Assembly: GCA_039680175.1 (NCBI GenBank)
Contig: JBDKTO010000071.1
Coordinates: forward strand, 1 to 53,651
From: Veillonellales bacterium
GTDB taxonomy: Bacteria; Bacillota; Negativicutes; JAAYSF01
Direction of reading: 5' to 3'
Length of the DNA: 53,651 nucleotides
The notes under the pieces are model-generated. The model was not told where the DNA came from, ran no database searches, and saw only the letters and a list, made by a program, of their open reading frames with translations. This document shows positions 954-48,518 of the stretch, in pieces. The stretch's first letter is position 1. The number at the start of each line of letters is the position of its first letter. Made by a program: the position numbers and the translations under genes.

Positions 954-2849
954 ATGAAACGTATCGTTGTTGATCCCGTCAGCCGGATCGAGGGACATTT
1001 GCGTGTGGAAATAAAAGTCGATGAGGCTAGCGGTAAAGTTCAGGATGCATTATCCAGCGGAACGGCCTGGCGTGGGATTGAACTGATTTGCAAAGGCAGG
1101 GATCCCCGGGATGTCTGGGCATATGCCCAGCGGATTTGCGGAGTGTGTACGACAGTGCACGCCTTAGGCGCCTTGCGGGCCGTGGAAGACGCTTTGGGGA
1201 TTGAAATTCCGAAAAACGCCAACTACATCCGGAATATTATTTTCGCTTCGCAAACCGTACAGGATCATCTGATTCATTTTTATCATTTGCATGGCTTGGA
1301 CTGGGTCAGTCCGGTGGAAGCGCTTAAAGCGGATCCGGCAGCTGCCGCCGCACTCCAGAACACGGTTTTGGATAAATATTCCCTGCCCCTCGCAGGGCCT
1401 ATTGAAATCAGCACCGACGCCTATCCGAAAGAATTTCCCAAAGCGACCACTGCCTATTATAAAGAAATACAAGCCAAAATCAAAAAAATTGTGGACAGCG
1501 GGCAGCTGGGCATTTTTGCCGCGCATTACTGGGATCATCCCGACTATGCTCTCCTGCCGCCGGCAGTTCATTTGATGGCGATAGCCCATTACCTGAACAT
1601 GCTGGATAAACAGCGGGAACTCGTTGTTTCCCATGTCGTCTTCGGCGGGAAAAATCCTCATCCCCACTATATTGTCGGCGGTATGCCCTGCTCTATTTCC
1701 CTGAACGACATGAATGCGCCGGTAAATGCCGAACGGCTTGCCGCAGTGGATACTTCGATCAATCTGGGCATAAGCGCTGTGAATTATTTCTATCTGCCCG
1801 ACTTGCTGGCCATTGGTGAAGCCTATGTGAAAGCCGGCTATATTGACGGCGGCGGCTTAGCCAAAGAAAGAGTATTAGGTTTCGGCGACTTACCCGATGA
1901 AACCTATTCGGGAACCAGTAACGGCAGCTATCATAAAAACCTGCTGCTTCGCTCTGACGGCGTAGTGGAGAACTTCGGACAGGGGGTTGCCAACGCAGTA
2001 TTTTATCCCTTCAATCCGCAGGATCTGGCGGATCCCGACGTATTGTCGGAAGGAGTAGAACATTCCTGGTATGAATATCCCGAAGCAGGCCAAGATTTAC
2101 ATCCGTGGAGCGGTATTACCAAACCCCGCTATACCGGCCCGAAAGAAGGAACGAAAACCAGCTGGAAATTCTTAAATGAAGACGGCAAATATTCCTGGCT
2201 GAAAACGCCGAAGTGGAGAGGAAAAACGGCAGAAGTCGGTCCGCTGGCCAGATATATCATCGTCTATACGAAAGTGAAGCAGGGCGTGATTCAGCCTACC
2301 TGGGTGGAAAAAATGATGGTGGATCAGATTGAGGCGGTATCGAAACTGTTAAATGTACCGGCAGAGAAATGGCTGACCTCCACAGTCGGGCGAACCGCCG
2401 TACGCGGGCTCGAAGCTCAACTATTTGCCTATGTGAATAAGTACTTTTATGCGAAACTAATCCAAAACATCCGTTCCGGCGATACAACCGTGGCCAATAT
2501 GGATAAGTGGGAGCCTTCGACTTGGCCGAAAGAAGCGAAAGGAGTCGGATTGCATGAAGCTCCCCGCGGCGCACTGAGCCACTGGGTTGTCATTAAGGAC
2601 GGCAAAGTCGCCAACTATCAGGCCATAGTGCCCTCGACCTGGAATGCCTGCCCCAGAGACAGCAAGGCGGGTTACGGGGCTTATGAAGCCAGCATGATCG
2701 ATACAAAAGTCAAAATTCCGGAAAAACCGCTGGAAATATTAAAAGTGATCCATTCCTTTGATCCTTGTCTGGCCTGTGCCACGCATTTATTCAATGCGGA
2801 GGGCAAAGAAATTACGGTGATTCATTCTGATTCCTATACACGGGATTAA
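954..2849 (+). CDS. hyaB: [NiFe] uptake hydrogenase large subunit
   Basis: Catalytic subunit holding the Ni-Fe(CN)2CO centre that oxidises H2. It opens with the typical MKRIVVDPVSRIEGHLR, has the N-terminal nickel motif RICGVC (C62, C65) and the C-terminal motif DPCLACATH. About 20 residues follow that His and would be removed by a maturation endopeptidase. That protease gene is not next to the operon in this window. The length of 631 aa is slightly above the 570-600 aa usual for group 1 enzymes. A GGGGAG ribosome binding site precedes the ATG. It is followed by the cytochrome b gene, so electrons probably go to the quinone pool. Confidence 0.96.
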   Translation: MKRIVVDPVSRIEGHLRVEIKVDEASGKVQDALSSGTAWRGIELICKGRDPRDVWAYAQRICGVCTTVHALGALRAVEDALGIEIPKNANYIRNIIFASQTVQDHLIHFYHLHGLDWVSPVEALKADPAAAAALQNTVLDKYSLPLAGPIEISTDAYPKEFPKATTAYYKEIQAKIKKIVDSGQLGIFAAHYWDHPDYALLPPAVHLMAIAHYLNMLDKQRELVVSHVVFGGKNPHPHYIVGGMPCSISLNDMNAPVNAERLAAVDTSINLGISAVNYFYLPDLLAIGEAYVKAGYIDGGGLAKERVLGFGDLPDETYSGTSNGSYHKNLLLRSDGVVENFGQGVANAVFYPFNPQDLADPDVLSEGVEHSWYEYPEAGQDLHPWSGITKPRYTGPKEGTKTSWKFLNEDGKYSWLKTPKWRGKTAEVGPLARYIIVYTKVKQGVIQPTWVEKMMVDQIEAVSKLLNVPAEKWLTSTVGRTAVRGLEAQLFAYVNKYFYAKLIQNIRSGDTTVANMDKWEPSTWPKEAKGVGLHEAPRGALSHWVVIKDGKVANYQAIVPSTWNACPRDSKAGYGAYEASMIDTKVKIPEKPLEILKVIHSFDPCLACATHLFNAEGKEITVIHSDSYTRD

Positions 2850-2885
2850 CCCCCGGTATAAGGGACAAGGGGAGGGAGAAAACTG

Positions 2886-3584
2886 ATGGACGACAATGTG
2901 ATGAAACCCTTTTATGTATTTAGTCCATTTCTTCGAGTCTTTCACTGGATTATGGTTGTTTCCATCCTGATTTTATTTGGTACCGGCCTGTATATCGGGA
3001 ACCCGGGCTATATCGGGTCATTGGGGATAGAACCAACCTTTGCGGTGGATAACATATTTTCCATGGAAAATATTCGCTATATTCATTTTGCGACAGCGTT
3101 TATCTTTATGTCCACGTTTATTTTCCGCTGGTATGGCGCATTTGTAAATAAAGGCGACCGCTTGTTTCCCAAACCCTGGACCTTTGATTATTGGCTGGGA
3201 ACGCTGGATGTGGCCTTACATTATATGTTTATTACGCCTGAACATCGGCCCTATCTGAGGAACCATATGGCCAGGGCCGGGTATGCTTCCGTCTATGTGC
3301 TGATCTTCATCGAAGCAGTCACCGGCTTGGCCATGTACTATATGATTGAACCTAACAGTATACTTGCCATCGTTTTCGGGCAGTTCAATTATTGGTTGAT
3401 CAACGAATACGTTGTTCATCTGCTGCACCATTATGTGGCTTGGGGTATTATTCTGTTCGCCATTACCCATATTTATATGGCGGTACGGGCCGATTTAACG
3501 GAAAACGGCGGAGAAATCTCCAGCATGTTTTCCGGCATTAAATATTTGCATGTCGATCCGGATGATATAGGAGATATTGATTAA
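2886..3584 (+). CDS. hyaC: Ni/Fe-hydrogenase b-type cytochrome subunit
   Basis: Membrane di-heme cytochrome b that anchors the hydrogenase and passes electrons to quinone. The 232-aa protein has four main hydrophobic segments (about residues 20-40, 60-80, 130-155 and 185-205). Conserved His residues sit in FHWIM, IHFATAF and LLHHYVAW/AITHIY, as expected for heme ligation in the HyaC/HupC family. The ATG is preceded by GGGGAGGGAG. It ends the visible operon; the next gene is convergent and no clear terminator hairpin is visible in the 97 bp between them. Confidence 0.92.
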   Translation: MDDNVMKPFYVFSPFLRVFHWIMVVSILILFGTGLYIGNPGYIGSLGIEPTFAVDNIFSMENIRYIHFATAFIFMSTFIFRWYGAFVNKGDRLFPKPWTFDYWLGTLDVALHYMFITPEHRPYLRNHMARAGYASVYVLIFIEAVTGLAMYYMIEPNSILAIVFGQFNYWLINEYVVHLLHHYVAWGIILFAITHIYMAVRADLTENGGEISSMFSGIKYLHVDPDDIGDID

Positions 3585-7332: not shown

Positions 7333-7365
7333 ACAACTAATTAAATATAATATATCCATGTGAAG

Positions 7366-7525
7366 ATTGCGGGAGAGATCTGATTTCAGGCGCCGAAGGA
7401 GCAAGCTGGCAAAAACTCTCAGGCAAAAGAACCGTAATCGAATGGAACTCTGGAAAGACTGCTTAGACGGCACCCAAGGGGTAACTGGTTATCCGGTATT
7501 CTCTCAGGTAAAGAAGACAGAGGCC
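7366..7525 (+). promoter_or_regulatory. Tandem glycine riboswitch
   Basis: Two consecutive glycine aptamers. The first has GGGAGAGA, then GCGCCGAAGGAGCAA and AACTCTCAGGCAAAA. The second has GGAACTCTGGAAAGA, then GGCACCCAAGGGGTAA and TCTCTCAGGTAAAG. The A-rich linker between them is short (7428-7443). The second aptamer has CCCAAGG where CCGAAGG is usual. The element directly precedes a terminator and the gcv genes, so glycine binding is expected to favour read-through. Confidence 0.93.
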
Positions 7526-14631: not shown

Positions 14632-16014
14632 ATGGATTATGACGTTGCAGTAATCGGCGGGGGCCCGGGAGGATATGCTGCCGCTATTAAGGCGGCAAAG
14701 CTGGGAGCCAAGGTTTTGTTAGTAGAAAAAGAAAAAATTGGCGGAGTTTGTTTGCATCATGGCTGTATTCCAACTAAGACCTTGCTAGATAGTGCTGAAA
14801 AATGGCGCCAACTGCATAGTTTGTCTGAGTTTGGACTGACGGCGGATAATCTCGCTTTTGATTTTACCAAGGTTAAGGAACGGATGAATCAGGTAATTTC
14901 TCAGCTGGAACGTGGTATTTTGCAAATGGTCAAAAGCAGTGCCGTTGAAATAAAATATGGTACGGCGGTTTTAGAAGCACCCCAGGTGTTTAAGATACAA
15001 TCTTCTTCTGCCGACATGGAACAATATACGGCACAAAATATTATTTTGGCTACCGGATCGGAACCTATAGGACTGCCCGTGCCCGGCAGCAATTTGGCAG
15101 GAGTCCTCAATAGTGATCAAGTACTTTCCCTGACAGAGGTGCCGCGCAGCATGGTGATTGTGGGAGCCGGTGCAGTGGGACTCGAGTTCGCTACCGCCTT
15201 TAAGTCCTTTGGCTGTAATGTTACGGTGGTGGAAATGATGCCGCAAATTTTACCCGGAGCAGACAGTGATATCGTAAAACGTTTAGGCTTTTTAATGCGG
15301 AAACAGGGCTTCAAAATCCTGACAAATACCAAAGTAATTCGTTTGGCGCAAGGCGATGACGCGCTGGAAATCGAAGTGGACAATGGTAAAAATGCCCAAG
15401 TCTTAACAGCGGAAAAAGTACTGGTCGCGATTGGCAGAAAGCCTCTGACAGAAGGGCTGGGCCTGGAAAGAGCCGGGGTGAAATACAGTGCTAAAGGGAT
15501 TGAAGTTGATGCGAAGCTTACGACTAATGTCAAAGGAATTTACGCAATCGGTGACGTAACGGGTAAATCCATGCTGGCGCATGCCGCGTCAACGGCTGGA
15601 ATCGCAGCGGCTGAGAATGCTCTCGGCGGTCAGGCGGCTGTAGATTTTAGTGCGGTGCCCGCTTGTGTATTTACAACGCCGGAAGTGGCAATGGTGGGAT
15701 TAACCGAGCAGGCCGCTGCTGCGAGCGGGCGAAGTATAAAAATTAGCAAAGCCAACTTTGCAGCGAACGGTAAGGCTGTTTCTATGGGTCAGATCGACGG
15801 GTTAGTTAAAATTATTGCCGACAGCGGCAATGATCAAATTTTGGGGATGCATATTCTGGGACCACATGCGAGCGATTTAATCATGGAAGGCGCTTTGGCT
15901 GTTACCAACGGGCTTAGAGCGAAAGACATAGGCAGGACGATTCATCCTCATCCGACTATTTCGGAAACGATAATGGGATGTATACATGGTTTTGAAAGCC
16001 CAAAGGTTTATTAG
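14632..16014 (+). CDS. lpdA: Dihydrolipoyl dehydrogenase (L protein)
   Basis: FAD enzyme that reoxidises dihydrolipoyl-GcvH with NAD+. Residues 1-40 carry the FAD-binding VIGGGPGGYAAAIKAAKLG. The redox disulfide is in GGVCLHHGCIPTK. The NAD-binding GAGAVGLEFA is at about residue 180, and the C-terminal catalytic HPHPTISE contributes the base to the partner subunit. The 460-aa length is standard. There is no lipoyl domain at the N-terminus. The gene sits in the gcv operon, so it is the glycine-cleavage E3. Confidence 0.95.
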   Translation: MDYDVAVIGGGPGGYAAAIKAAKLGAKVLLVEKEKIGGVCLHHGCIPTKTLLDSAEKWRQLHSLSEFGLTADNLAFDFTKVKERMNQVISQLERGILQMVKSSAVEIKYGTAVLEAPQVFKIQSSSADMEQYTAQNIILATGSEPIGLPVPGSNLAGVLNSDQVLSLTEVPRSMVIVGAGAVGLEFATAFKSFGCNVTVVEMMPQILPGADSDIVKRLGFLMRKQGFKILTNTKVIRLAQGDDALEIEVDNGKNAQVLTAEKVLVAIGRKPLTEGLGLERAGVKYSAKGIEVDAKLTTNVKGIYAIGDVTGKSMLAHAASTAGIAAAENALGGQAAVDFSAVPACVFTTPEVAMVGLTEQAAAASGRSIKISKANFAANGKAVSMGQIDGLVKIIADSGNDQILGMHILGPHASDLIMEGALAVTNGLRAKDIGRTIHPHPTISETIMGCIHGFESPKVY

Positions 16015-30540: not shown

Positions 30541-30554
30541 TAATCACCCCACAG

Positions 30555-30826: not shown

Positions 30827-31171
30827 CTATTTATCCCCGAAAATTCCATTAGTGTTAATGTCAATTGGCCCGCGGATTGAGGTATCAACATCCAACACCT
30901 CATGGACGGCAACTTTCATCATGGCGGATACCTCGTCTATGGAATGTTCGGGCGTTCCTTGAAGCCGACTCTCTTCTGAGACAAGCAAGTTTTCCCGCAG
31001 ACGCAGCATACTTTCCCTTTTCGTATAGGTTGCGATATCCATAACCACGAGATCACCTTCGCCGTTTTTAGTCAAATAAACTGTACTTGCTGCATATTTG
31101 AATTGCCTCGCGAGAATAATCTTAAGAAATGATTTTACGATCTCTTTCACGGATAAAATTATCAATGTCAT
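30827..31171 (-). pseudogene. Phd/YefM-family antitoxin remnant
   Basis: The core VYLTKNGEGDLVVMDIATY is the typical Phd/YefM fold segment, followed by the helical tail (SMLRLRENLLVSEE, then EHSIDEVSAMMKVAVHEV). The N-terminal DNA-binding part is abnormal: in another frame IS-DYSREAIQICSKYS resembles the expected start, which suggests a frameshift near 31110. The C-terminus runs on for about 20 residues beyond the family end. No partner toxin follows; the region next to it is the att scar. Its 5' end overlaps the DUF3791 gene. Confidence 0.55.
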
Positions 31172-31337
31172 TTATGATATAGTTTGATCCTGTTGTATGC
31201 AAGGCATCGTAACAGTCATAAAGATAATTTTGTACACCATATTTCTTAAACAGTTCCATGGTTGCCCTGCCGGTCATACGTTTTTGCGTCTTATATTCCT
31301 CAATGCAATACACCAAAAAGGGCAAATTCTTGCTCAT
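31122..31337 (-). CDS. DUF3791 small protein
   Basis: A 71-aa protein with the family pattern FLVYCIEEYK, ELFKKYGVQNYLYDCYDALHTTG, then YIINDIDNFI. DUF3791 genes commonly lie next to DUF3990 genes, as here. It may act as an antitoxin or accessory protein of the cassette; that role is inference. It starts 2 bp after the preceding small gene and ends in the antitoxin remnant. Confidence 0.75.
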   Translation of the reverse strand: MSKNLPFLVYCIEEYKTQKRMTGRATMELFKKYGVQNYLYDCYDALHTTGSNYIINDIDNFIRERDRKIIS

Positions 31338-31339
31338 GC

Positions 31340-31579
31340 TTAAGCCTCCTCAGGAAAAGTAATTTGGCCGGTTTGCTTCTCCTCGGCGAACATTTCATAT
31401 AGTGTTAACGGACTTAAATGCCAAAGTTTTGTATCTTCATCTTCCAGTAATGCATATAGCTCAGATTGATATAATGCCTCTGTAGCCTGCAGTTCATCCA
31501 CTTTTTGCTTTTCGGCAATTAAGGCAATTAATTGTGGCACAATCAAAGTAAGTATTCCATGCAGTTGTTTTTCTTCCAT
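31340..31579 (-). CDS. Small helical protein of the DUF3990 cassette
   Basis: A 79-aa acidic, helical protein (EEKQLHGILTLIVPQLIALI, then LYALLEDEDTKLWHLSPLTL, ending FPEEA). It starts with ATG at 31579, 9 bp after GGAGG; the longer TTG frame begins inside that RBS. The gene begins 1 bp after the DUF3990 stop, so translation is coupled. I do not recognise a named family with certainty. Position between toxin-like and DUF3791 genes suggests a partner or antitoxin. Confidence 0.7.
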   Translation of the reverse strand: MEEKQLHGILTLIVPQLIALIAEKQKVDELQATEALYQSELYALLEDEDTKLWHLSPLTLYEMFAEEKQTGQITFPEEA

Positions 31580-31580
31580 T

Positions 31581-32069
31581 TTAGTATTCCTCCTCAAGGC
31601 TACCTGAAAACTTCAAGTACGTTAAGGACTTTTCAGTTGCAAAAACAACTTGATCATATAAATTTTTCACCTTTAGAGCAGCTAATGTTTGCTCTTTTGT
31701 TAAGAGACCGCTTGTATAAAGGGTAAAAGTCCGATAAACGTCATCATCTGCAACCGGACCAATAATACAATCATATTGCCTCCCGGTATATTCGCCTGCT
31801 CTGTTAAGTGAAACAAAATCCAGCCATTTTTCATTAGCATAATCAAAGCGTAAAACGTCTAATGCCTGCAGGGCACGCTCTTCATCTAAATGATAAACAT
31901 TTACGATTGCTTTTCCAATTTTTCGGCGTATCATTACTTTTTTTGAAAAATTGGTTGCCTGTGCTTTATTTGTTGTTGTATAAAAGCCGAATCCAAAATC
32001 TAAAAATCTATTCTGGATAATCAGCTTCGGTTTTGACACCATTTGGTTAGTGCCATGATAAAGCAACAT
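31581..32069 (-). CDS. DUF3990 protein, predicted ADP-ribosyltransferase-fold toxin-like
   Basis: A 162-aa protein that starts [15 protein letters not shown] and continues [24 protein letters not shown] (H5) and FGFYTTT (Y30) resemble the H-Y pair that binds NAD in PARP-like ADP-ribosyltransferases, and DUF3990 is generally placed near that fold. NAD use and toxicity are inferred. The ATG at 32069 follows GGAGGT with 9 bp; the ORF can be extended 10 codons upstream without an RBS. It heads a three-gene minus-strand unit with the two small genes. Confidence 0.78.
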
Positions 32070-32137
32070 AGCAAGACTACCTCCGCTCTTCTTATCCATC
32101 AGTATGCCAATAGTTAATCGTCAATATGTTATGCTTC

Positions 32138-32178: not shown

Positions 32179-32396
32179 ATTATAGCATATCTATGTAGGG
32201 AAAAAGAATAGATGCCATAGGACTTTGCTGCTGCTGGTGAATTTTGTTTAGGTCTAATAGGCTAGGGTGATGATATCCTCATGACTGACATTCTCGTATC
32301 CATTTCTGGATAAAAGCAAGATGAATCTTGATGCAGAAACAATGCTATTTAGCAAAGATACCTTTATGAAATATTAATAGGGGCAGGCATATTCTT

Positions 32397-32528
32397 GTCC
32401 GTCGTCCGCAAGATTTTTTTAAAAATCCAGCTATATCAACGGTTAGGTATATAAAAATTTAGGGGACGAGGCGGACGTAGCGGACAGCTGGATTTTTTGC
32501 ATCGCAAAAAAGTGCATCACTTTTTTCG
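32397..32528. ncRNA. Structured non-coding block with crossing inverted repeats
   Basis: Two long complementary pairs cross each other. GTCCG-TC-GTCCGC (32397-32409) pairs with GCGGAC-GTA-GCGGAC (32471-32485). AAAAATCCAGCT (32421-32432) pairs perfectly with AGCTGGATTTTT (32486-32497). The order A-B-A'-B' would form a pseudoknot. Two small hairpins follow: TTTTTTGC/GCAAAAAA (32493-32511) and AAAAAAGTG/CACTTTTTT (32506-32526), which exclude each other. No ORF covers this block. The strand is unknown. No known RNA family was recognised. Confidence 0.45.
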
Positions 32529-32529
32529 T

Positions 32530-32962
32530 AAAGGAGCGCTTGGTTTGTTGTAATTAAAATGACATTATCGAAAAATTCGAAAAAATTATAACGAATAACC
32601 TTAAAGGACTAAACGTAATTTTAAAGAAACATAATCCTATCTTTTAGATATAAGTTACATGCCTATACTGGAGCAGATAGGTTATGTTAAAGTTTCCGAT
32701 AAGAAATCAAAATCCAACTATCCCCAAGGATGTGATTTGACTGTCCAAGCTCGTAAAGTTTATATGTCCACGTAAAGATATAAAAAAATTGAATTCGTGT
32801 AAAATAGCTGACAATGATAAACCGGGACAACTAGAAATTTTTGCTGATGTGGAAATGCTGTCAACAAAATATAAATTAGCATTGATTGTCGCGGTTAGTG
32901 CTGTTTCTGCGAGCGGGTATATACATTGGTCCTCAAAAAATGTCTTCCACATGTATACATAT
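32530..32962. other. Intergenic stretch without a convincing gene
   Basis: AT-rich sequence between the structured block and the NdpA gene. Short open frames exist on both strands (plus 32789-32995, minus 32707-32952) but they have no good RBS or recognisable domain. Confidence 0.5.
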
Positions 32963-33967
32963 TTATTTATTTATTATTTTCCCAATGTTTTTTAATTGTA
33001 TTAGTATGGTTCCGTCTGGATTATTTGTAAATTCAATATAATCCTTATTTTGAAAGTAATCCACCGGAAATGCTAATTCAATTCCTGTATCAGTTTTAAT
33101 TCTATGATTTTTACTATTTTTTATGGCGAAAGATCTATCTACTTTAACAGTATTTGGGATACCTGCATTTTTTACTTCGTTAATATATTCTTCCTGCATT
33201 GCAGAAGAAGAACTAAATACCTCTTTTCCTAATTCTACTGGATCTAGGAAATCCGAAATCTCTGCATTTTCAACCAAATAGCTTTTTACTTTAGATATTG
33301 CAGCAACGCTACTTTGTCCATGATTTTCTGATACAGTTCGTGTAATCGATTGAACTAAGTCAATTGCATGTTTAGGTGAAATTGAGGAAGTACATTCTAA
33401 AAGCTTTTCCGGTATTATAAATGTATCTTTACCATCTATAAACCTTTTTTTATCGTTAAACTTAATGTACAAAGAATTTGTTTCTACAATAGCATATTCA
33501 TCAATCTTTTGGGAAATATTAGGAAGAATGGTATAATAATTAATGAGTTCATTTTTTATTCGTCCATCGTCTTTATTCACATAATGAGTAAATCCTATTT
33601 TATTATTGCATTTAAAAATGACTAGATATGGTTTATTGTCTACACTAAGATCAGCAATAATTAAATCTGTAGGATCTAAAATATCTGACTTTGACGTTTC
33701 AGAATGTATTATATTTGCTATATAATAAGAAAATTCCATAAAATCTAAATTGCCATCGGTATAATCTAGTAGGTTTTTACAAAAGATACTATTTTTACAA
33801 AAAACTCCTGTTTCTGCATTCGAATTGTTTAAAAACTTTTCAACATGTTTTGTTATATAAGTTATTACGCTATTATCATGAATATCTAATTCTTTTTCCG
33901 ATAAAACAGTTATTCCAGAATCAAAATCCAGAATATGTAAAACAGCTTTATTTAGAATTATTATCAA
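32963..33967 (-). CDS. Nucleoid-associated protein (NdpA/YejK family)
   Basis: Full-length NdpA-like protein: LNKAVLHILDFDSGITVLSEKELDI at the start, a long middle domain with DLIIADLSVDNKPYLVIFK, and an end with YIEFTNNPDGTILIQL. Family members bind DNA and are part of the nucleoid or of accessory loci. I prefer TTG at 33967 (334 aa), which has AAGAAGG 8 bp upstream and starts exactly at the domain; the ATG at 34024 (353 aa) has no RBS and overlaps the upstream gene by 77 bp. The TTG start still overlaps that gene by 20 bp, so the two are translationally coupled. Confidence 0.82.
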   Translation of the reverse strand: MIIILNKAVLHILDFDSGITVLSEKELDIHDNSVITYITKHVEKFLNNSNAETGVFCKNSIFCKNLLDYTDGNLDFMEFSYYIANIIHSETSKSDILDPTDLIIADLSVDNKPYLVIFKCNNKIGFTHYVNKDDGRIKNELINYYTILPNISQKIDEYAIVETNSLYIKFNDKKRFIDGKDTFIIPEKLLECTSSISPKHAIDLVQSITRTVSENHGQSSVAAISKVKSYLVENAEISDFLDPVELGKEVFSSSSAMQEEYINEVKNAGIPNTVKVDRSFAIKNSKNHRIKTDTGIELAFPVDYFQNKDYIEFTNNPDGTILIQLKNIGKIINK

Positions 33968-34634
33968 TAAATTCGCCTTCTTTCCCTTTATTTCCTGTTT
34001 TTCCCATGACTTCTTCTTTTTCATTTTTTGCTATTATGAGGATTTTGTATGTGATACTTTCTCTAAACATAACTATTGTATTGTAAATAGTGCTTTTAAG
34101 TTCATAAAATATTCGAAAAGTATAGAAAAAGTATACAAGAAGAAATAGGATTGTTATGCTACTATTAATACCTTGATCTGGAGTTAAACTCCAATCATTT
34201 TGTAAACAATTTAAAAAGAGAGATAAAACACCCGTTATCGCCAAACCTATAAAATATAAGAAGAGAATAGATTCATAGTAAGACGTACGTTTTTTTAAAG
34301 AACTTACGCCATCTACTTCGCAAACTTTAGAAAGTGCTTTAATATATTTATCGCTCAAAAAGGCCAATAAAATGGTATAAATTGTAAACAGATACGCAAA
34401 TATATTTAATTGCGCAGATAGAATTATGCCTTCAATTGCAGTTAATATCTTTATTGTATTCTCATCTACTCCTATATAAACCGCAAAAGAGAGAGCTAAA
34501 GCAAAGATAATACAGGTAGAAAAACGATTATTTTTATTTGGACAAATTTCTTTGAAGGCATGCGCAATCATTTTTTTTGCAGGTGTTTCTTTTATAAATT
34601 CTTCAATAGTAGAAAAATATTTTTCTTCACTCAT
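33948..34634 (-). CDS. Predicted four-helix membrane protein, middle gene of the NdpA cassette
   Basis: A 228-aa protein without a known name. Hydrophobic segments lie at about 40-56, 68-95, 118-142 and 155-175. The ~40-residue N-terminal part and the ~40-residue Lys/Glu-rich C-terminal tail (with EKEEVMGKTGNKGKEGEF) would be cytosolic. It overlaps the NdpA gene and lies 39 bp after the upstream gene of unknown function. In a defence setting such a protein would be a candidate membrane effector, which is inference only. Confidence 0.75.
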   Translation of the reverse strand: MSEEKYFSTIEEFIKETPAKKMIAHAFKEICPNKNNRFSTCIIFALALSFAVYIGVDENTIKILTAIEGIILSAQLNIFAYLFTIYTILLAFLSDKYIKALSKVCEVDGVSSLKKRTSYYESILFLYFIGLAITGVLSLFLNCLQNDWSLTPDQGINSSITILFLLVYFFYTFRIFYELKSTIYNTIVMFRESITYKILIIAKNEKEEVMGKTGNKGKEGEFIDNNSK

Positions 34635-34673
34635 TTACTACACCCCTATCTATGCGCGCATCCTTCTTGCGCT

Positions 34674-35615
34674 TTACAACAAAGAACGAATAATAGGTAA
34701 AATTCTTTTATACCATGCTATATTTTCTGAACTGGTTACATTTATAATTGATTCTTTTTGCGCAATGCCTATGAGATATACATCATCTTCAGACAAGATA
34801 TCTCTTGCAAATGGAATTTTTTTATTAGATGAAAACGAGTCTTCTTTAATTGTATCTTTTTCGCCATTTTCATTCGTAACACGTATTGTTGGAGCAGCTT
34901 GCCCGCCTATATGTACTAACATTTCCTTAATTCCTTCTTTGGAATCTGGCGAGTTAAACTTTGCGTTAGCAGATGACGATCCAATCTTTTTCATTTCAGC
35001 CCGCACTGCACTTGCCATAGGTAGCTGATCAAAGTCGTTGTTGAGAGGGAAAAAACGAAGCGTAACCCAATCTATCTTTTTCACATTTTTTAAAATAGAC
35101 TCAATATCTTCTCTCAGCGGTATATCTACTATATTTACGTTTGCTTTTGGCAACTTAACATAATCTTTATTTTTCTTCTTTTCTTCCTTATTAAATTCAC
35201 GGACATATTTACTCAAAAAAAATCTTACCGTTTTCTGGAAACTTCTAATATCGGGACTAGCATTTTCATTTCGAACAAGAACCATACGGTGATTTTTTAG
35301 AAATATAATAAATCGTGAGTATGGAGCGGTTGGATGTTGGGCAGGAGAAACTGTTAATTCTCCATTTTTTACAGTTGTATGAATTCTATATTCTGTTTCT
35401 TTAATATAGTTCCCTACAAGTACATATTCTTCTGCGTCAAATTTTTTTATTTTAACATGGTTTAATAAAAATGAAGGAATTTCATCTTTTTTTCCTCGTA
35501 TATAACCAGCGTTAAAGGCGGGAAAAATAACATCCTCAAAATGAGATAACATTGGTTCTTCTTTATCCCCAAACGTAATATTGAAATTAGCCAAGTGCAT
35601 AATCTTTTCTTCCAT
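34674..35615 (-). CDS. Uncharacterised 313-aa protein, first gene of the NdpA cassette
   Basis: No family recognised. It starts MEEKIMHLANFNITFG, is soluble, and mixes beta-rich stretches (RIHTTVKNGELTVSP, FIIFLKNHRMVLV) with a Lys-rich central linker (EFNKEEKKKNKDYVKL). The C-terminal third (VYLIGIAQKESIINV) could be a second small domain. The ATG at 35615 follows AGGGGG with 9 bp; an extension of 8 codons includes that RBS. It is co-oriented with the membrane protein and NdpA genes and probably opens their operon; a sensor or recognition role is possible but unproven. Confidence 0.7.
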   Translation of the reverse strand: MEEKIMHLANFNITFGDKEEPMLSHFEDVIFPAFNAGYIRGKKDEIPSFLLNHVKIKKFDAEEYVLVGNYIKETEYRIHTTVKNGELTVSPAQHPTAPYSRFIIFLKNHRMVLVRNENASPDIRSFQKTVRFFLSKYVREFNKEEKKKNKDYVKLPKANVNIVDIPLREDIESILKNVKKIDWVTLRFFPLNNDFDQLPMASAVRAEMKKIGSSSANAKFNSPDSKEGIKEMLVHIGGQAAPTIRVTNENGEKDTIKEDSFSSNKKIPFARDILSEDDVYLIGIAQKESIINVTSSENIAWYKRILPIIRSLL

Positions 35616-35670
35616 GTTAAATGGCCCCCTAAAAATCATGTCAGCTCCGCTGCAAATAACTTATTTCGGT

Positions 35671-35884: not shown

Positions 35885-36070
35885 GGTAGTCTCCAATCCT
35901 CATATTTATGCGAGCTTGCTTTTTTCATAATATATTCAATAACACCCTGCTTTTAAATCTTCCAAACCGGTTATACCGGACCGAAAGATAATAATTATAA
36001 GCGGTTTACCGGCTGAAAGAACTTCACACAGTTGTTCTACGCACGGGATCTCCCCATAATTATTAAGCAT
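35885..36070 (-). pseudogene. Excisionase-family HTH protein, decayed
   Basis: From the ATG at 36070 the frame reads LNNYGEIPCVEQLCEVLSAGK, which resembles the start of small MerR/excisionase HTH proteins. It then shifts: another frame gives VWKI-KQGVIEYIMKKASSHKYED, which closely matches the end of the intact protein at 46137-46322 (VWKIPKQGVVEYVL). At least one indel and stops separate the two parts. A GGAGG RBS remains. It is a broken homologue of the gene on the other side of the restriction-modification locus. Confidence 0.65.
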
Positions 36071-36277
36071 AATTTTTTTACCTCCGAAAAGATTGTTTTG
36101 CTGTAATATAAAGAGCTGTATAAAAAATATCATGATTTTAGGGAAAAGACATAAAATAATTCGACAAAAAATGAATCAATGTTTAATTAACCTTACTCAT
36201 TTTGCAGGATATGACAGATGGTATATAGAAGATTTTAGGAGATGTTGTTTCGGTGAAGTGAGGGAGCGGTTCTAGTT

Positions 36278-42052: not shown

Positions 42053-43063
42053 ATGGATGAACAGGCTCTTGGAAGAATCCTTATTTACCGGAACGAAAAG
42101 GGCGATACCAAAATTGACGTCTATTTTGAGGCTGACACCATTTGGATGACTCAGAAAAGTCTTGCAGAATTATATCAAGTCCGTATTCCCACGATAAATG
42201 AACATATAAAAAATATTTTATCTGATGGTGAGCTTGATGAGTCAACTATTAGGGAATTCCTAATAGTTCAAAATGAAGGCGGTAGACAGATTGAAAGGCA
42301 TGTAAAACATTATAATTTCCAGATGGTGCTTGCGATCGGCTATCGTGTCCGCTCGAATGTGGGCATCCATTTCCGCAACTGGGCGTCGGCTATTCTGACG
42401 GAATACAGCCAAAAAGGTTTTGCGATGAACGACGAACGGTTGAAGAATCCGCAGCCTTTCGGCGCCGACTATTTTGATGAGCTGCTTGAACGGATCAGAG
42501 ATATCCGCACTTCGGAAAAGCGTTTCTATGAAAAGATTAAAGAAGTTTATGCGACCTCTGTGGATTATGACTCCAGAAGTGAAGCGGCTGCCAATTTTTT
42601 TGCAAACGTTCAAAACAAGATGCACTACAGCGTTCACGGTCATACGGCGGCTGAATTAATTGCCGGACGGGCGGATGCGAGTAAACTGAATATGGGACTG
42701 ACTTCATTTAAGGGAGCTGTAGTCCGTAAGCGTGACGTTGCCATTGCGAAAAACTATCTTAACAAGAACGAAATTTCGGAACTTAATCATATTGTAACCA
42801 TGTATCTTGATTATGCGGTGGATCAGGCGAGACACCGCATCCCTATGCATATGGCAGATTGGGAAGAAAAACTGGATTTATTTTTGCGGTTTAACGGTCG
42901 GGAAGTATTGAATAACTATGGAACAATTACTGCGGAAATTGCAAAAAAGCTAGCGGAACATGAATATGAAAAGTTTGATTCTCACCGCAAAGAACTTGCC
43001 GAGATGGATGTCAGGCAGCTTGAAGATCAGGTAAAATCCGTTGGACGGGAGAAAAAATCATGA
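42053..43063 (+). CDS. RhuM-family protein
   Basis: A 336-aa protein with the RhuM family pattern: IWMTQKSLAELYQVRIPTIN as an N-terminal DNA-binding part, FQMVLAIGYRVRSNVGIHFRNWA, LRNPQPFG-like segment, and a conserved middle with FANVQNKMHYSVHGHTAAE. RhuM was named as a Salmonella virulence protein; in many genomes it is an extra gene within type I or III restriction loci, with unknown role. It overlaps the res gene by 4 bp (ATGA). Confidence 0.9.
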   Translation: MDEQALGRILIYRNEKGDTKIDVYFEADTIWMTQKSLAELYQVRIPTINEHIKNILSDGELDESTIREFLIVQNEGGRQIERHVKHYNFQMVLAIGYRVRSNVGIHFRNWASAILTEYSQKGFAMNDERLKNPQPFGADYFDELLERIRDIRTSEKRFYEKIKEVYATSVDYDSRSEAAANFFANVQNKMHYSVHGHTAAELIAGRADASKLNMGLTSFKGAVVRKRDVAIAKNYLNKNEISELNHIVTMYLDYAVDQARHRIPMHMADWEEKLDLFLRFNGREVLNNYGTITAEIAKKLAEHEYEKFDSHRKELAEMDVRQLEDQVKSVGREKKS

Positions 43064-45058
43064 AGTTCCAGTTCAAAATTCAGCAATATCAGACCGACGC
43101 CGTAAACAGCGTTGTGGATGTTTTTGCCGGCCAGCCTTACCAATCCGGCTTGCAGTATACGCGGGATTTGGGTATTAAGGAAAAGCCGAAAGCGATGCCA
43201 GTTGAAGCCATGCCTTTGGATTTTTCGGAGCATGCGGCAGGGGCGGACGAAGACTTGGACGATGCGACAGGTTTTGCCAATGCTGCTTTGGTTTTGCGGG
43301 ACGAGCAATTGCTGGCGAATATCCGCAGCATGCAGCTTGGCAATAACATCAAGCAGTCTGTGGAACTGGTCAAAGATATCGGACGGTGCAGCCTTGATGT
43401 CGAAATGGAAACGGGAACCGGCAAGACCTACGTCTACAGTAAGACGATTTTTGAATTGAACAAAAAATACGGCTGGAGCAAGTTTATCGTAGTCGTTCCG
43501 TCTATTGCCATTCGCGAAGGGGTAAAGAAGTCTTTTGCGATAACGGAAGAACATTTCATGGAGCATTACAAGAAAAAAATGAGATTTTTTGTCTATAACA
43601 GCAAGAATTTTACGGATTTGGACAGCTTCAGCAGCAGTGCCAGCATAAACGTTATGATCATCAATATCCAGGCCTTCAACCGGACGATGAAAGAGGGGGC
43701 AAAAAATGCGGAAGCACTGCGTATTTATTCAGAACAGGATACCTTCGGCAGCCGCAGGCCGATCGATGTGATCAAGGCCAATCGGCCAATTTTGATTTTA
43801 GATGAACCGCAGAAAATGGGCGGTGCGGCAACGCAAAAAGCAGATGGAATATTTTGCAGGCAAGACTGTCATTGACGGCAAGGAGCAAAAGGTAGTGCTG
43901 GATGCAAAACAGGCACGGGTTATTTATCAATATCTGGTAAAAAATAATTATATTGATGAAAACGAAGCGATCACTGGTGAATATCACGATGCATTGGAAA
44001 ATAACAGGCTGGCGCCTCTGCCGGAGAGTTTGAAGAATATTGCCGCTGGTGTGCAGTGCTTGATACAAAGTGTATTTGATGAAAATGTGCTGAAGAATAT
44101 GGTTTCTAACGGAAATACAACCAAAGTTATAGAAAACGAACTGAATGATAACTTCTACAAGAAGGAATTCCAGACGCTCTGGCACTATATTAATCATAAA
44201 TATGCTTATACGGTTGATTTTAAAAGTTCGGAATTAGTTCGCAAAGCCGTAGCCCATATCAATGAGAAAATGCAGGTGGCATCGCTGCAATATACGGTTG
44301 TTTCCGCCAGCCAGCGTAAGGAACTGGATCAGGAAACCATAGCCCAGGGACAGAGCTTTGAAGACAAGAAAACGAAAACTAAGGATTTGAAAGCAGCCGG
44401 AATCGGCCAGGTAAAATATGATCTGATTGGAAAAGTCGCCGCTGGGACTACTCTGACGCGGCGTACTGCTGCCGAAATTCTCTATGGCATAACAGCGGAA
44501 AAATTTGCGATGTTCCGGGACAATCCGGAAGAATTCATCAGCAAAGCAATTCTGCTGATCGATGAGGAGAAGGCCACCATGATTGTCGAACACATTACCT
44601 ATAATTCGACGGATATGGGATATGACAGTACGATTTTTACGGCGGAAAAGCACAGCCAGAATATATCCCAAGCATTTAAAGGGAAAAAACATATTCAAGA
44701 CTATGTATTTACTGACGGGACGGCGGAAAAAAGCATCGAGCGCCGTTTTGCCGAAGACTTGGACAGTGCCGAAGAAGTTTGCGTATATGCTAAACTGCCT
44801 AAGGGATTTGCGATTCCGACTCCCGTTGGCCATTATTCCCCGGACTGGGCAATTGCTTTCTATGAAGGGACCGTAAAACATATCTATTTTATTGCTGAAA
44901 CTAAAGGCACCATGGAAAGCTTGCAACTGCGGCCGATAGAAAAAGCTAAGATTGATTGTGCCAAAAAGCTATTTAACGAAATATCCACCAGCAAAGTACG
45001 GTATCATGATGTCGACAGCTATCAAAGCCTATTGAATATCATGGGGCAATTAAAGTAA
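43060..45058 (+). pseudogene. Type III restriction endonuclease (Res) with large internal deletion
   Basis: The first part (43060-43845) matches Res up to the helicase motifs I and II: DVEMETGTGKTYVYSKTI and ILILDEPQKMGGAATQK. Then the frame ends at 43875. The second part (from about 43847, in another frame) begins at MEYFAGKTVIDGKEQKV, which belongs to a region after the helicase core, and continues to the PD-(D/E)xK nuclease (HYSPDWAIAFYE, AETKGTME). A normal Res is ~950-1000 aa; here about 260 + 400 residues remain, so roughly 300-350 residues with motifs III-VI are lost and the halves are out of frame. Restriction is therefore expected to be dead. Confidence 0.85.
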
Positions 45059-46874: not shown

Positions 46875-47343
46875 ATGCCCATTGGCAAAGAAAAAACACC
46901 CTTGGAATGTCTGTCGGAGGAAACCTTGTTAAGTGAATTTGTCGCACCGGAAGCTGCCAAACAGCTCATTGCGGAATATGCCAGTATCTACAATATCTTG
47001 CAGCATACATCGGAACAGCAGCTGGCTGGTATTACCGGTATCGGCAAGGCCAAGCTTCGAAAACTTGCTTGCATCAAAGCGGTGATCCAGCGGATGGAGC
47101 AGGAACGGAAAAAGCAGATCCAAAGGATTACCAAGCCCCAAGATGCGGCAGACTACTGCTTCGATATGCAGGACTTGCGGCAGGAAGAATTCCGGGTTTT
47201 ACTGTTGGATACAAAAAATAAGATATTGGCGCAAAAATGTGTTTTTATCGGTACCGTCAACTCTTCGCTGGTATCTGCAAGGGAAGTATTTTATGTGGCA
47301 GTACAGAATATGGCAACTACTATTATTGTTCTGCACAATCATC
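46875..47343 (+). pseudogene. radC: radC, 5' fragment (interrupted)
   Basis: The first 156 codons match RadC/JAB-domain proteins: a degenerate HhH region (LAGITGIGKAKLRKLACIKA), then LRQEEFRVLLLDTKNKIL and VSAREVFYVAVQNMA. At the JAMM metal site the frame reads LHNH and then departs into unrelated sequence, stopping at 47399. The missing part ([11 protein letters not shown] and onwards) is found at 52046-52204. The gene is thus split by a 4.7-kb element. The RBS is GAGGAGG. Confidence 0.9.
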
Positions 47344-47420
47344 GGAGAAAGAATAGGTTTACAGTTTTATTCTCCTATGATATATTAGGCATTGCCTAAG
47401 TAATTAAGGTAATGCCTAAT
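47344..47420. repeat. Left-end inverted repeats of the radC element
   Basis: GGAGAA (47344-47349) pairs with TTCTCC (47370-47375) right at the junction. Further in, ATTAGGCATTGCCT (47384-47397) and AGGTAATGCCTAAT (47407-47420) form a 13/14 inverted repeat just upstream of the recombinase gene. Possible recombinase binding sites or an operator. Confidence 0.5.
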
Positions 47421-47435: not shown

Positions 47436-48518
47436 ATGGTGATCAGCAATAACTTTAGTATTATCAATGGAATAAATGCCCAGAGTAAGGAACCTACTTT
47501 AGAGGATTCTGTTAGGTTTCAGGCAAAATTGATTGGTTTATGGGAACAACAGCAAAATATATTGGGATATACCAAGGCCACTATTGCCTTGAATATTCGG
47601 AATGTAAATGAGATACTTGATTTAAGTAATAAATTTATATGGGAACTAACGAATGCGGATATGGATAGATTTTATGAAAGATTAGTGGGAAAAGGGCTTG
47701 CTTATTCCACCAGAAGGAAGTACCAGTCCAATATATCCGCATTTTTAAATTTCCTTAATGCCAGGCATAGTAGAGATATTTACGAACAGTATGGAGTAAA
47801 TGTGCCCAATATTATTGATAAGTTCAATCGACATATGCACCATAAAGATGATGTGGAGTCCTATGTATTGCCACCAGAGCCGGAAATATTGGAACGGTTT
47901 TGGAATGGTCTAAAGAAAGAAATGATGTCTGCAAGGAAATATGCTACGATGGTAAGAGATTACATGGTATTTCGAATGATGGAAAAATCAGGATTAAGAT
48001 CGTTTGAATGTATTATGCTCGATGTTAGGGATTTACGGTTTGATTTAGGAGATAATGGGAAAATCCATGTGAGATATGGAAAAGGATCAAGGGGAACCGG
48101 CTACAAGGAACGCCTAATACCAATGCTTTTTGGTTTGGATGAATTGTTGAAATGGTATCTGAAACAAGTACGACCTCTCTTTTCAACTGAGAAAGAAGGG
48201 GCGTTGTTTTATAGTGAGTCTGGAATAAGATTGGGGCGCGATGTGGCAAGAAATGCGCTGAGAAGAAGACAGCAGGACTTAGGGTTTAAGGAAAATGAAA
48301 TCTTCAGCCCTCATCAGTTGAGACATGCCTTTGCGACCAATCTTACAGAAAAGGGTGTTGATTTACTAACGATAAAAACATTGCTTGGGCACAGCAAGAT
48401 ACAGACAACATTTGAGTATGTTTCTCCTAATGATAATTTTCTGGAAAAACGTATCCGGATGGCACAAGAAAAGTGGCAAAAACAGCTACTGGAGTATCAG
48501 GAAGGAAAGGACGTGTAG
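47436..48518 (+). CDS. Tyrosine recombinase, TnpA-like
   Basis: A 360-aa phage-integrase-family recombinase. A core-binding SAM-like domain takes residues ~35-120. The catalytic domain shows the Arg region KSGLRSFECIMLDV, the Lys region RYGKGSRGTGYKERLIPM, SPHQLRHAFATNL (HxxR), GHSKIQTTFEYVSPND (His and Tyr nucleophile). All catalytic residues are present, so it should be active. Length equals that of Tn554 TnpA (361 aa). Start codon ATG 47436 follows a weak RBS. Confidence 0.92.
   Translation: MVISNNFSIINGINAQSKEPTLEDSVRFQAKLIGLWEQQQNILGYTKATIALNIRNVNEILDLSNKFIWELTNADMDRFYERLVGKGLAYSTRRKYQSNISAFLNFLNARHSRDIYEQYGVNVPNIIDKFNRHMHHKDDVESYVLPPEPEILERFWNGLKKEMMSARKYATMVRDYMVFRMMEKSGLRSFECIMLDVRDLRFDLGDNGKIHVRYGKGSRGTGYKERLIPMLFGLDELLKWYLKQVRPLFSTEKEGALFYSESGIRLGRDVARNALRRRQQDLGFKENEIFSPHQLRHAFATNLTEKGVDLLTIKTLLGHSKIQTTFEYVSPNDNFLEKRIRMAQEKWQKQLLEYQEGKDV

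Follow-up and report, generated by a model that had tools for sequence, protein, structure and literature searches.

A non-coding block in a Veillonellales genome (positions 32397–32528 of a 53,651-nucleotide stretch, referred to hereafter as the window) raises the question of whether its crossing inverted repeats mark a structured RNA or a site in the DNA itself. A sequence-only reading, whose coordinates and elements are right, had described in it an 11-bp GC-rich pair (A/A′) and a perfect 12-bp pair (B/B′) in the order A-B-A′-B′, followed by poly-T/poly-A hairpins; it had considered the arrangement rare by chance, predicted a pseudoknot, and suggested either a regulatory or antitoxin-like RNA or the remnant of a mobile element end.

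Complementarity within the block

32421–32432 and 32486–32497: B and B′, perfect 12-bp inverted repeat, AAAAATCCAGCT
32486–32497, + strand: B′, complementary to B; restricted to the window and not conserved

The perfect pair is borne out, and both poly-A/T hairpins can be located after it (32493–32500/32504–32511 and 32506–32514/32518–32526). The GC-rich pair is less exact: A (GTCCGTCGTCC, 32397–32407) can indeed form 11 pairs with GGACGAGGCGGAC (32464–32476), but the pairing requires a 2-nt bulge and includes one G-U, and because A′ is a three-fold direct repeat, its second and third GGAC copies (32473–32485) are an equally good partner for A. Rarity by chance likewise holds in part. Compared with shuffles, folding of the block is moderately better (z −2.75 on the + strand, −2.0 on the − strand), whereas the window contains four perfect inverted repeats of at least 12 bp within 140 bp, and B/B′ alone is therefore not extraordinary. 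Crossing pairs of perfect stems (at least 8 and at least 11 bp) are absent across the whole window; the site at 32397–32528 yields none either, since A/A′ is imperfect. The GGAC array itself far exceeds chance, the pattern GGAC-N5-[GA]GAC-N4/5-GGAC giving 0 matches in 20 Markov-shuffled passes over 379 kb while being found in every locus scanned there.

Homologues of the block do exist, and in them the two pairs do not covary, contrary to the predicted pseudoknot. Within the compared segment, B/B′ complementarity of 11 nt is confined to the window (0/500 shuffles), with all 15 relatives lacking the pair and showing 4–7 nt, the chance level; nor do the closest homologues (Sporomusa ovata and a metagenome-assembled genome, MAG, of the same family) retain it. 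Of the 12 B pairs, 6 are broken among the three closest sequences, solely by cells that do not pair, and compensatory changes number 0; 90 of 500 shuffles reach the covariation score obtained for the full structure. The A/A′ complement amounts to an invariant tetranucleotide, GTCC, opposite GGAC: bases outside these motifs (offsets 1–4, 17 members) pair 11, 15, 10, and 8 times where re-pairing expects 10.1, 15.1, 10.5, and 7.8. Rfam, at gathering and relaxed thresholds, placed no family on the block, returning weak chance matches of which none overlaps it. The extra B/B′ complement in the window is a lineage-specific accident. A coding role, suggested by an S. ovata ORF (..KIQIYQGLGIYF..DVADKSGLC..), was also considered and rejected, as the reading frame is not kept (a 2-nt indel separates the window from S. 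ovata) and the dyad described below falls in different frames in the window and in a Negativicutes MAG (L055).

A conserved GGAC element in Negativicutes

BLAST against 380 genomes of the same class (Negativicutes) returned one strong homologue (L012, S. ovata DSM 2662, E 1e-20) and a weaker one from a MAG of the same family as the window genome (L018). Distant members were brought in by a model built from the window copy and these two homologues (R1), from whose matches L065, L069, L075, and L079 were rejected for absence of the iterons and L071 and L074 were left out of the counts. A sequence-only profile of 13 members (R2) then matches 34 of the 380 genomes at E ≤ 1e-3, with strong matches in about 25, and finds one copy in the window’s own genome (E 1e-18). 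Over a 368-genome sample of the phylum, R2 gave no credible match in other classes, the sole one (L099) sitting within a TetR-like coding sequence. Neither the block nor a relative gave a significant BLAST match to plasmids or phages. A strict pattern scan of the genome contigs produced 26 matches, the real ones only in S. ovata (L044) and the Negativicutes MAG (L055) and the remainder G+C-rich chance matches; the same can be said of 2.9 million scanned viral contigs insofar as their few matches are all chance. The window and S. ovata are alike at element offsets 6–135 only (77%), with unrelated flanks; the element is a discrete homology island, similarity stopping at its borders.

In the window the element comprises the following parts.

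32391–32525, + strand: conserved element, extent matched by profile R2
32397–32407, − strand: left iteron array, equal to A; GTCC at 32397–32400 and 32404–32407, 7-bp period, reading GGAC on the − strand
32408–32463: spacer of ~60 bp, 73% A+T here against 65% in the flanks; holds B (32421–32432)
32464–32485, + strand: right iteron array, equal to A′; GGAC at 32464, 32473, and 32482, 9-bp period
32506–32526: dyad AAAAAAGTG-CAT-CACTTTTTT, conserved AAAGTGnnTCACTTT motif, one copy here

The general plan is two to three GTCC copies, a spacer of ~60 bp, three GGAC copies at an 8–9-bp period, and one or two AAAGTGnnTCACTTT dyads. Offsets agree within a base or two in most members: GTCC at 6 and 13 (the left-array positions kept in most relatives; sometimes 17 and 21), GGAC at 75/76, 84/85, and 92/93, and dyads at ~113 and ~146. 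The GGAC array is 21–22 bp long, its first and third copies 17 or 18 bp apart (27 members). Paired dyads are spaced by 32 or 33 bp in 10 of 11 cases and otherwise by 22 bp, near whole helical turns, and dyads are degenerate or missing in some members. The spacer is 52–73% A+T, and in 13 of 14 members it is more A+T-rich than the flanking sequence.

This anatomy bears on whether the block acts as RNA, be it as a pseudoknotted regulator or antitoxin or through a transcription terminator formed by the dyads. The better-than-shuffled folding on the + strand would suit such a role, as would the fact that the dyads are hairpins beside U-runs toward which right-hand genes often run; an iteron period of 8 or 9 bp, dyads that are degenerate or missing in some members and otherwise set in helical phase, and the missing B/B′, covariation, and Rfam family all argue the other way, and we regard an RNA or terminator as very improbable.

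tRNA genes, attachment sites, and complete islands

At 11 loci an intact tRNA gene lies 140–305 bp upstream of the element on the same strand (Ser-CGA in seven, Arg-TCT in two, Thr-CGT and Ser-GCT in one each). The interval between tRNA and element holds a terminator-like hairpin together with a tandem repeat varying with the tRNA target (TTTTGGGCACATTTTGGGCACA for Ser-CGA, GTGGGTCCATTTGTGGGTCCA for Arg), and these target-matched repeats are putative integrase arm sites. The GGAC arrays themselves are unlikely to be arm sites, because the separate tandem repeat, changing with the tRNA target, is nearer the core.

One genome (G178, locus L152) carries a complete 15.4-kb island between a tRNA-Ser 3′ end (483–507) and its duplicate (15909–15932), beyond which lies a serC-like gene. 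With a duplicated tRNA 3′ end and an integrase inside (1813–3033), alongside an HTH_17 excisionase, a helicase-like protein, and ERF, it is a tRNA-targeting tyrosine-integrase island. Near each of its ends, inside a GGGCACA-type repeat, lies one element, the two being mirrored in orientation; a third GGAC array is found within the ERF coding sequence (8205). A second island (G172, L154) has the same two tRNA 3′ ends, with right-hand arrays at the same three places. In the arrays internal to ERF (L152 8205, L154 12073), the repeat is also translated. Elsewhere, L132/L091 shows two facing elements ~5 kb apart. Array pairs pointing apart, as if two island ends abut, were seen at L139 (4389–4678) and L092 (1151 and 3475), and no tRNA was found between the arrays of either pair. 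The GTCC side usually faces the att, in the window as elsewhere; at L094, contrary to this rule, the element points toward its att fragment.

Recurrent neighbors of the element are a tyrosine integrase, an HTH_17 excisionase-type protein, ERF, DUF932, RadC, a PD-(D/E)XK protein, and a 656-aa protein. The HTH_17 gene is at +168/+210 in four loci (L091, L093, L132, L133) and at +2330, adjoining the integrase, in two (L089, L129); several members in cargo regions have no excisionase gene within the fetched flank. The 656-aa protein has a weak primase/helicase match (PHROG 8841, E 0.003) and lies within ~5 kb of the element in seven loci. This unclassified ~656-aa family, without a Pfam match, is typical of the islands (L152 3869–5839, L086, L092, L084, L134, L139) and is a candidate replication protein.

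The islands are satellite-like, with phage-type genes (ERF, Gp157), and their repeat arrays are non-coding and near the ends, as a packaging site (cos/pac-like) or another site recognized by a helper phage might be. Neither a terminase nor a helper-phage homologue of the site was found, and with the viral-contig matches few and due to chance, we consider this the least probable of the explanations weighed here.

The window locus itself is organized around a tRNA scar.

30541–30554, − strand: single copy of the GGGGTGATTTGTGGGGTGATTT-type repeat, across the scar from the tandem repeat, then sequence matching the post-tRNA region of another island, on contig C102
30602–30664, − strand: att scar, 3′ part of tRNA-Ser(GCT) (nt 33–91), its 63 bp exactly matching the intact tRNA-Ser(GCT) that the genome carries on contig C37
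30774–30797, − strand: tandem direct repeat, − strand GGGGTGATTTGTGGGGTGATTT, putative integrase arm-type sites
31122–32099, − strand: DUF3791/orf/DUF3990 cassette, cargo between scar and element
32963–35639, − strand: NA37 (37-kD nucleoid-associated) and two more ORFs, cargo on the element’s far side
35936–36133, − strand: possible degraded HTH_17 excisionase relic, a weak match (E 2e-4, HMM of island HTH_17 proteins)
46875–47399, + strand: truncated RadC, homologous to the RadC of three other element-carrying islands
47436–48518, + strand: tyrosine recombinase PF00589, 15 kb from the element

The scar is also identical to C102, the probable continuation of C37, and its tandem repeat is the one beside tRNA-Ser(GCT) in C102 and also occurs in L142. 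With this tandem repeat on its right and the single copy and C102-like post-tRNA sequence on its left, the scar resembles a site where two integrated elements meet, or a decayed element. The GGAC element lies 1.7 kb inside it, with cargo in between. Type III R-M, the truncated RadC, and the tyrosine recombinase follow beyond NA37, and the far end of the island is off the contig; no direct or inverted repeats of note link the left part of the window to its right end. The element at this locus is probably left over from an island that has decayed.

Three further observations concern the window. The type III restriction gene (43060–45058) is split into two overlapping ORFs matching model positions 1–230 and 599–984 with the middle missing; it is apparently broken, while its methylase matches at full length. 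A 72-bp segment to the right of the element (32573–32644) shares 77% identity with the upstream region of a resolvase-type gene on C20, another contig of this genome. A tandem glycine riboswitch (two aptamers, 7360–7522) sits directly upstream of glycine-cleavage genes.

That the window copy lies between two cargo modules invites the explanation that the element is a boundary or exchange site, at which defence cassettes are gained or lost via recombination between copies. Two loci illustrate how this might look: in G211 (L086), two direct copies of 140 bp, 91% identical and with unrelated flanks, surround a 2.2-kb insert with two ORFs, and in G225 (contig C5) direct copies at 93644 and 100690, ~7 kb apart, surround restriction/ATPase-type genes. 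Homologous recombination or successive island insertions explain these cases as well, however; they are the only two clear ones, and a dedicated recombinase was not identified, which leaves cargo exchange quite unlikely.

Function of the element and its relation to known systems

We tentatively favor the explanation that the block is a subterminal, cis-acting double-stranded DNA site for the excision complex of tRNA-targeting integrative elements, bound by a predicted island protein, rather than an RNA gene; the suggested remnant of a mobile element end had pointed in the right direction. As part of this explanation, the carriers are best read as satellite- or IME-like islands of Negativicutes. 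The anatomy is firm, and the function is what we infer from it. A protein-binding double-stranded DNA site fits because the short repeats are invariant, their spacing is fixed and helically phased, and their positions at the island ends are mirrored. The binding protein would be encoded by the island, most likely as the HTH_17 protein (winged-helix, excisionase-type) whose gene lies beside the site or the integrase. It would oligomerize on the 9-bp-spaced GGAC repeats, and the oligomer would give rise to an excision complex at attL and attR that sets the direction of recombination and perhaps regulates nearby genes. RDFs are known from the literature as small wHTH proteins that bind att regions.

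Several features count against the excision-site reading, namely the third array in ERF, the members in cargo regions without an excisionase gene, the orientation at L094, and the 1.7-kb distance in the window. The layout in lambda does so too: there, excisionase sites lie on one arm rather than in a mirrored two-array arrangement 250 bp from the core.

The main rival to the excision site is a replication-origin-like site, its iterons bound by an island initiator or helicase so that the spacer melts and the island replicates after excision. Opposed short iterons around a spacer that is A+T-enriched in nearly all members would be expected of such a site, and the 656-aa protein near it in seven loci could supply the initiator; there is precedent in satellites, whose self-encoded initiators bind iterons, and in RepA_N plasmids, for which 8–9-bp iteron repeats are reported (PMC7145576). 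Yet each island has mirrored copies at its two ends and a further array instead of a single origin, the position follows the att and not the helicase gene (several kb off), the spacer is merely 52–73% A+T, and many copies have no replication gene nearby (often on truncated contigs); on balance we judge an origin somewhat unlikely. Broader, and in our estimate unlikely, is the reading that the element is a multi-copy end-and-module site, with mirrored GGAC arrays at island ends and between cargo cassettes, that would serve to excise, replicate, or swap defence cargo.

Literature searches with partial coverage yielded no description of the GGAC element, which is apparently an undescribed feature. 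It provides a compact, searchable signature for a tRNA-integrating island family in a poorly charted class, and illustrates that opposed DNA-binding repeats can yield an apparent pseudoknot as a by-product. If the site controls excision or replication, it could serve to identify the island protein that runs these elements and to show how defence cassettes move along.

By analogy, the known kind that the element seems to resemble is that of att-proximal accessory or iteron sites. Like the Xis/RDF and arm sites of lambda, Tn916, and ICEMlSym R7A, it lies by the att, beside integrase and HTH_17 genes, and its tandem repeats of ~9-bp period would suit oligomeric winged-helix proteins; unlike the Xis/RDF sites, it is mirrored at both ends and combines dyads with two opposed arrays that flank a 60-bp spacer, with binding putative, and unlike the arm sites it is accompanied by separate, non-GGAC tandem repeats that appear to fill that role. 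With the iteron origins of phage satellites (SaPI/PICI, P4, PLE) it shares short iterons around a spacer and satellite-like islands with a helicase-like protein, but it occurs in more than one copy per island, is tied to att ends, and has a moderately A+T-rich spacer and only a candidate initiator. The A-B-A′-B′ complementarity of pseudoknotted antitoxin or regulatory RNAs (e.g., type III toxin–antitoxin RNAs) can be drawn in the window, whereas it is conserved in no relative and comes without covariation or an Rfam match. The islands as a whole correspond to tRNA-targeting genomic islands (Islander), with a tyrosine integrase, a second copy of the tRNA 3′ end at the far end, and an intact tRNA restored, as shown for G178; they differ in no principle from these, the conserved GGAC element being an extra feature.
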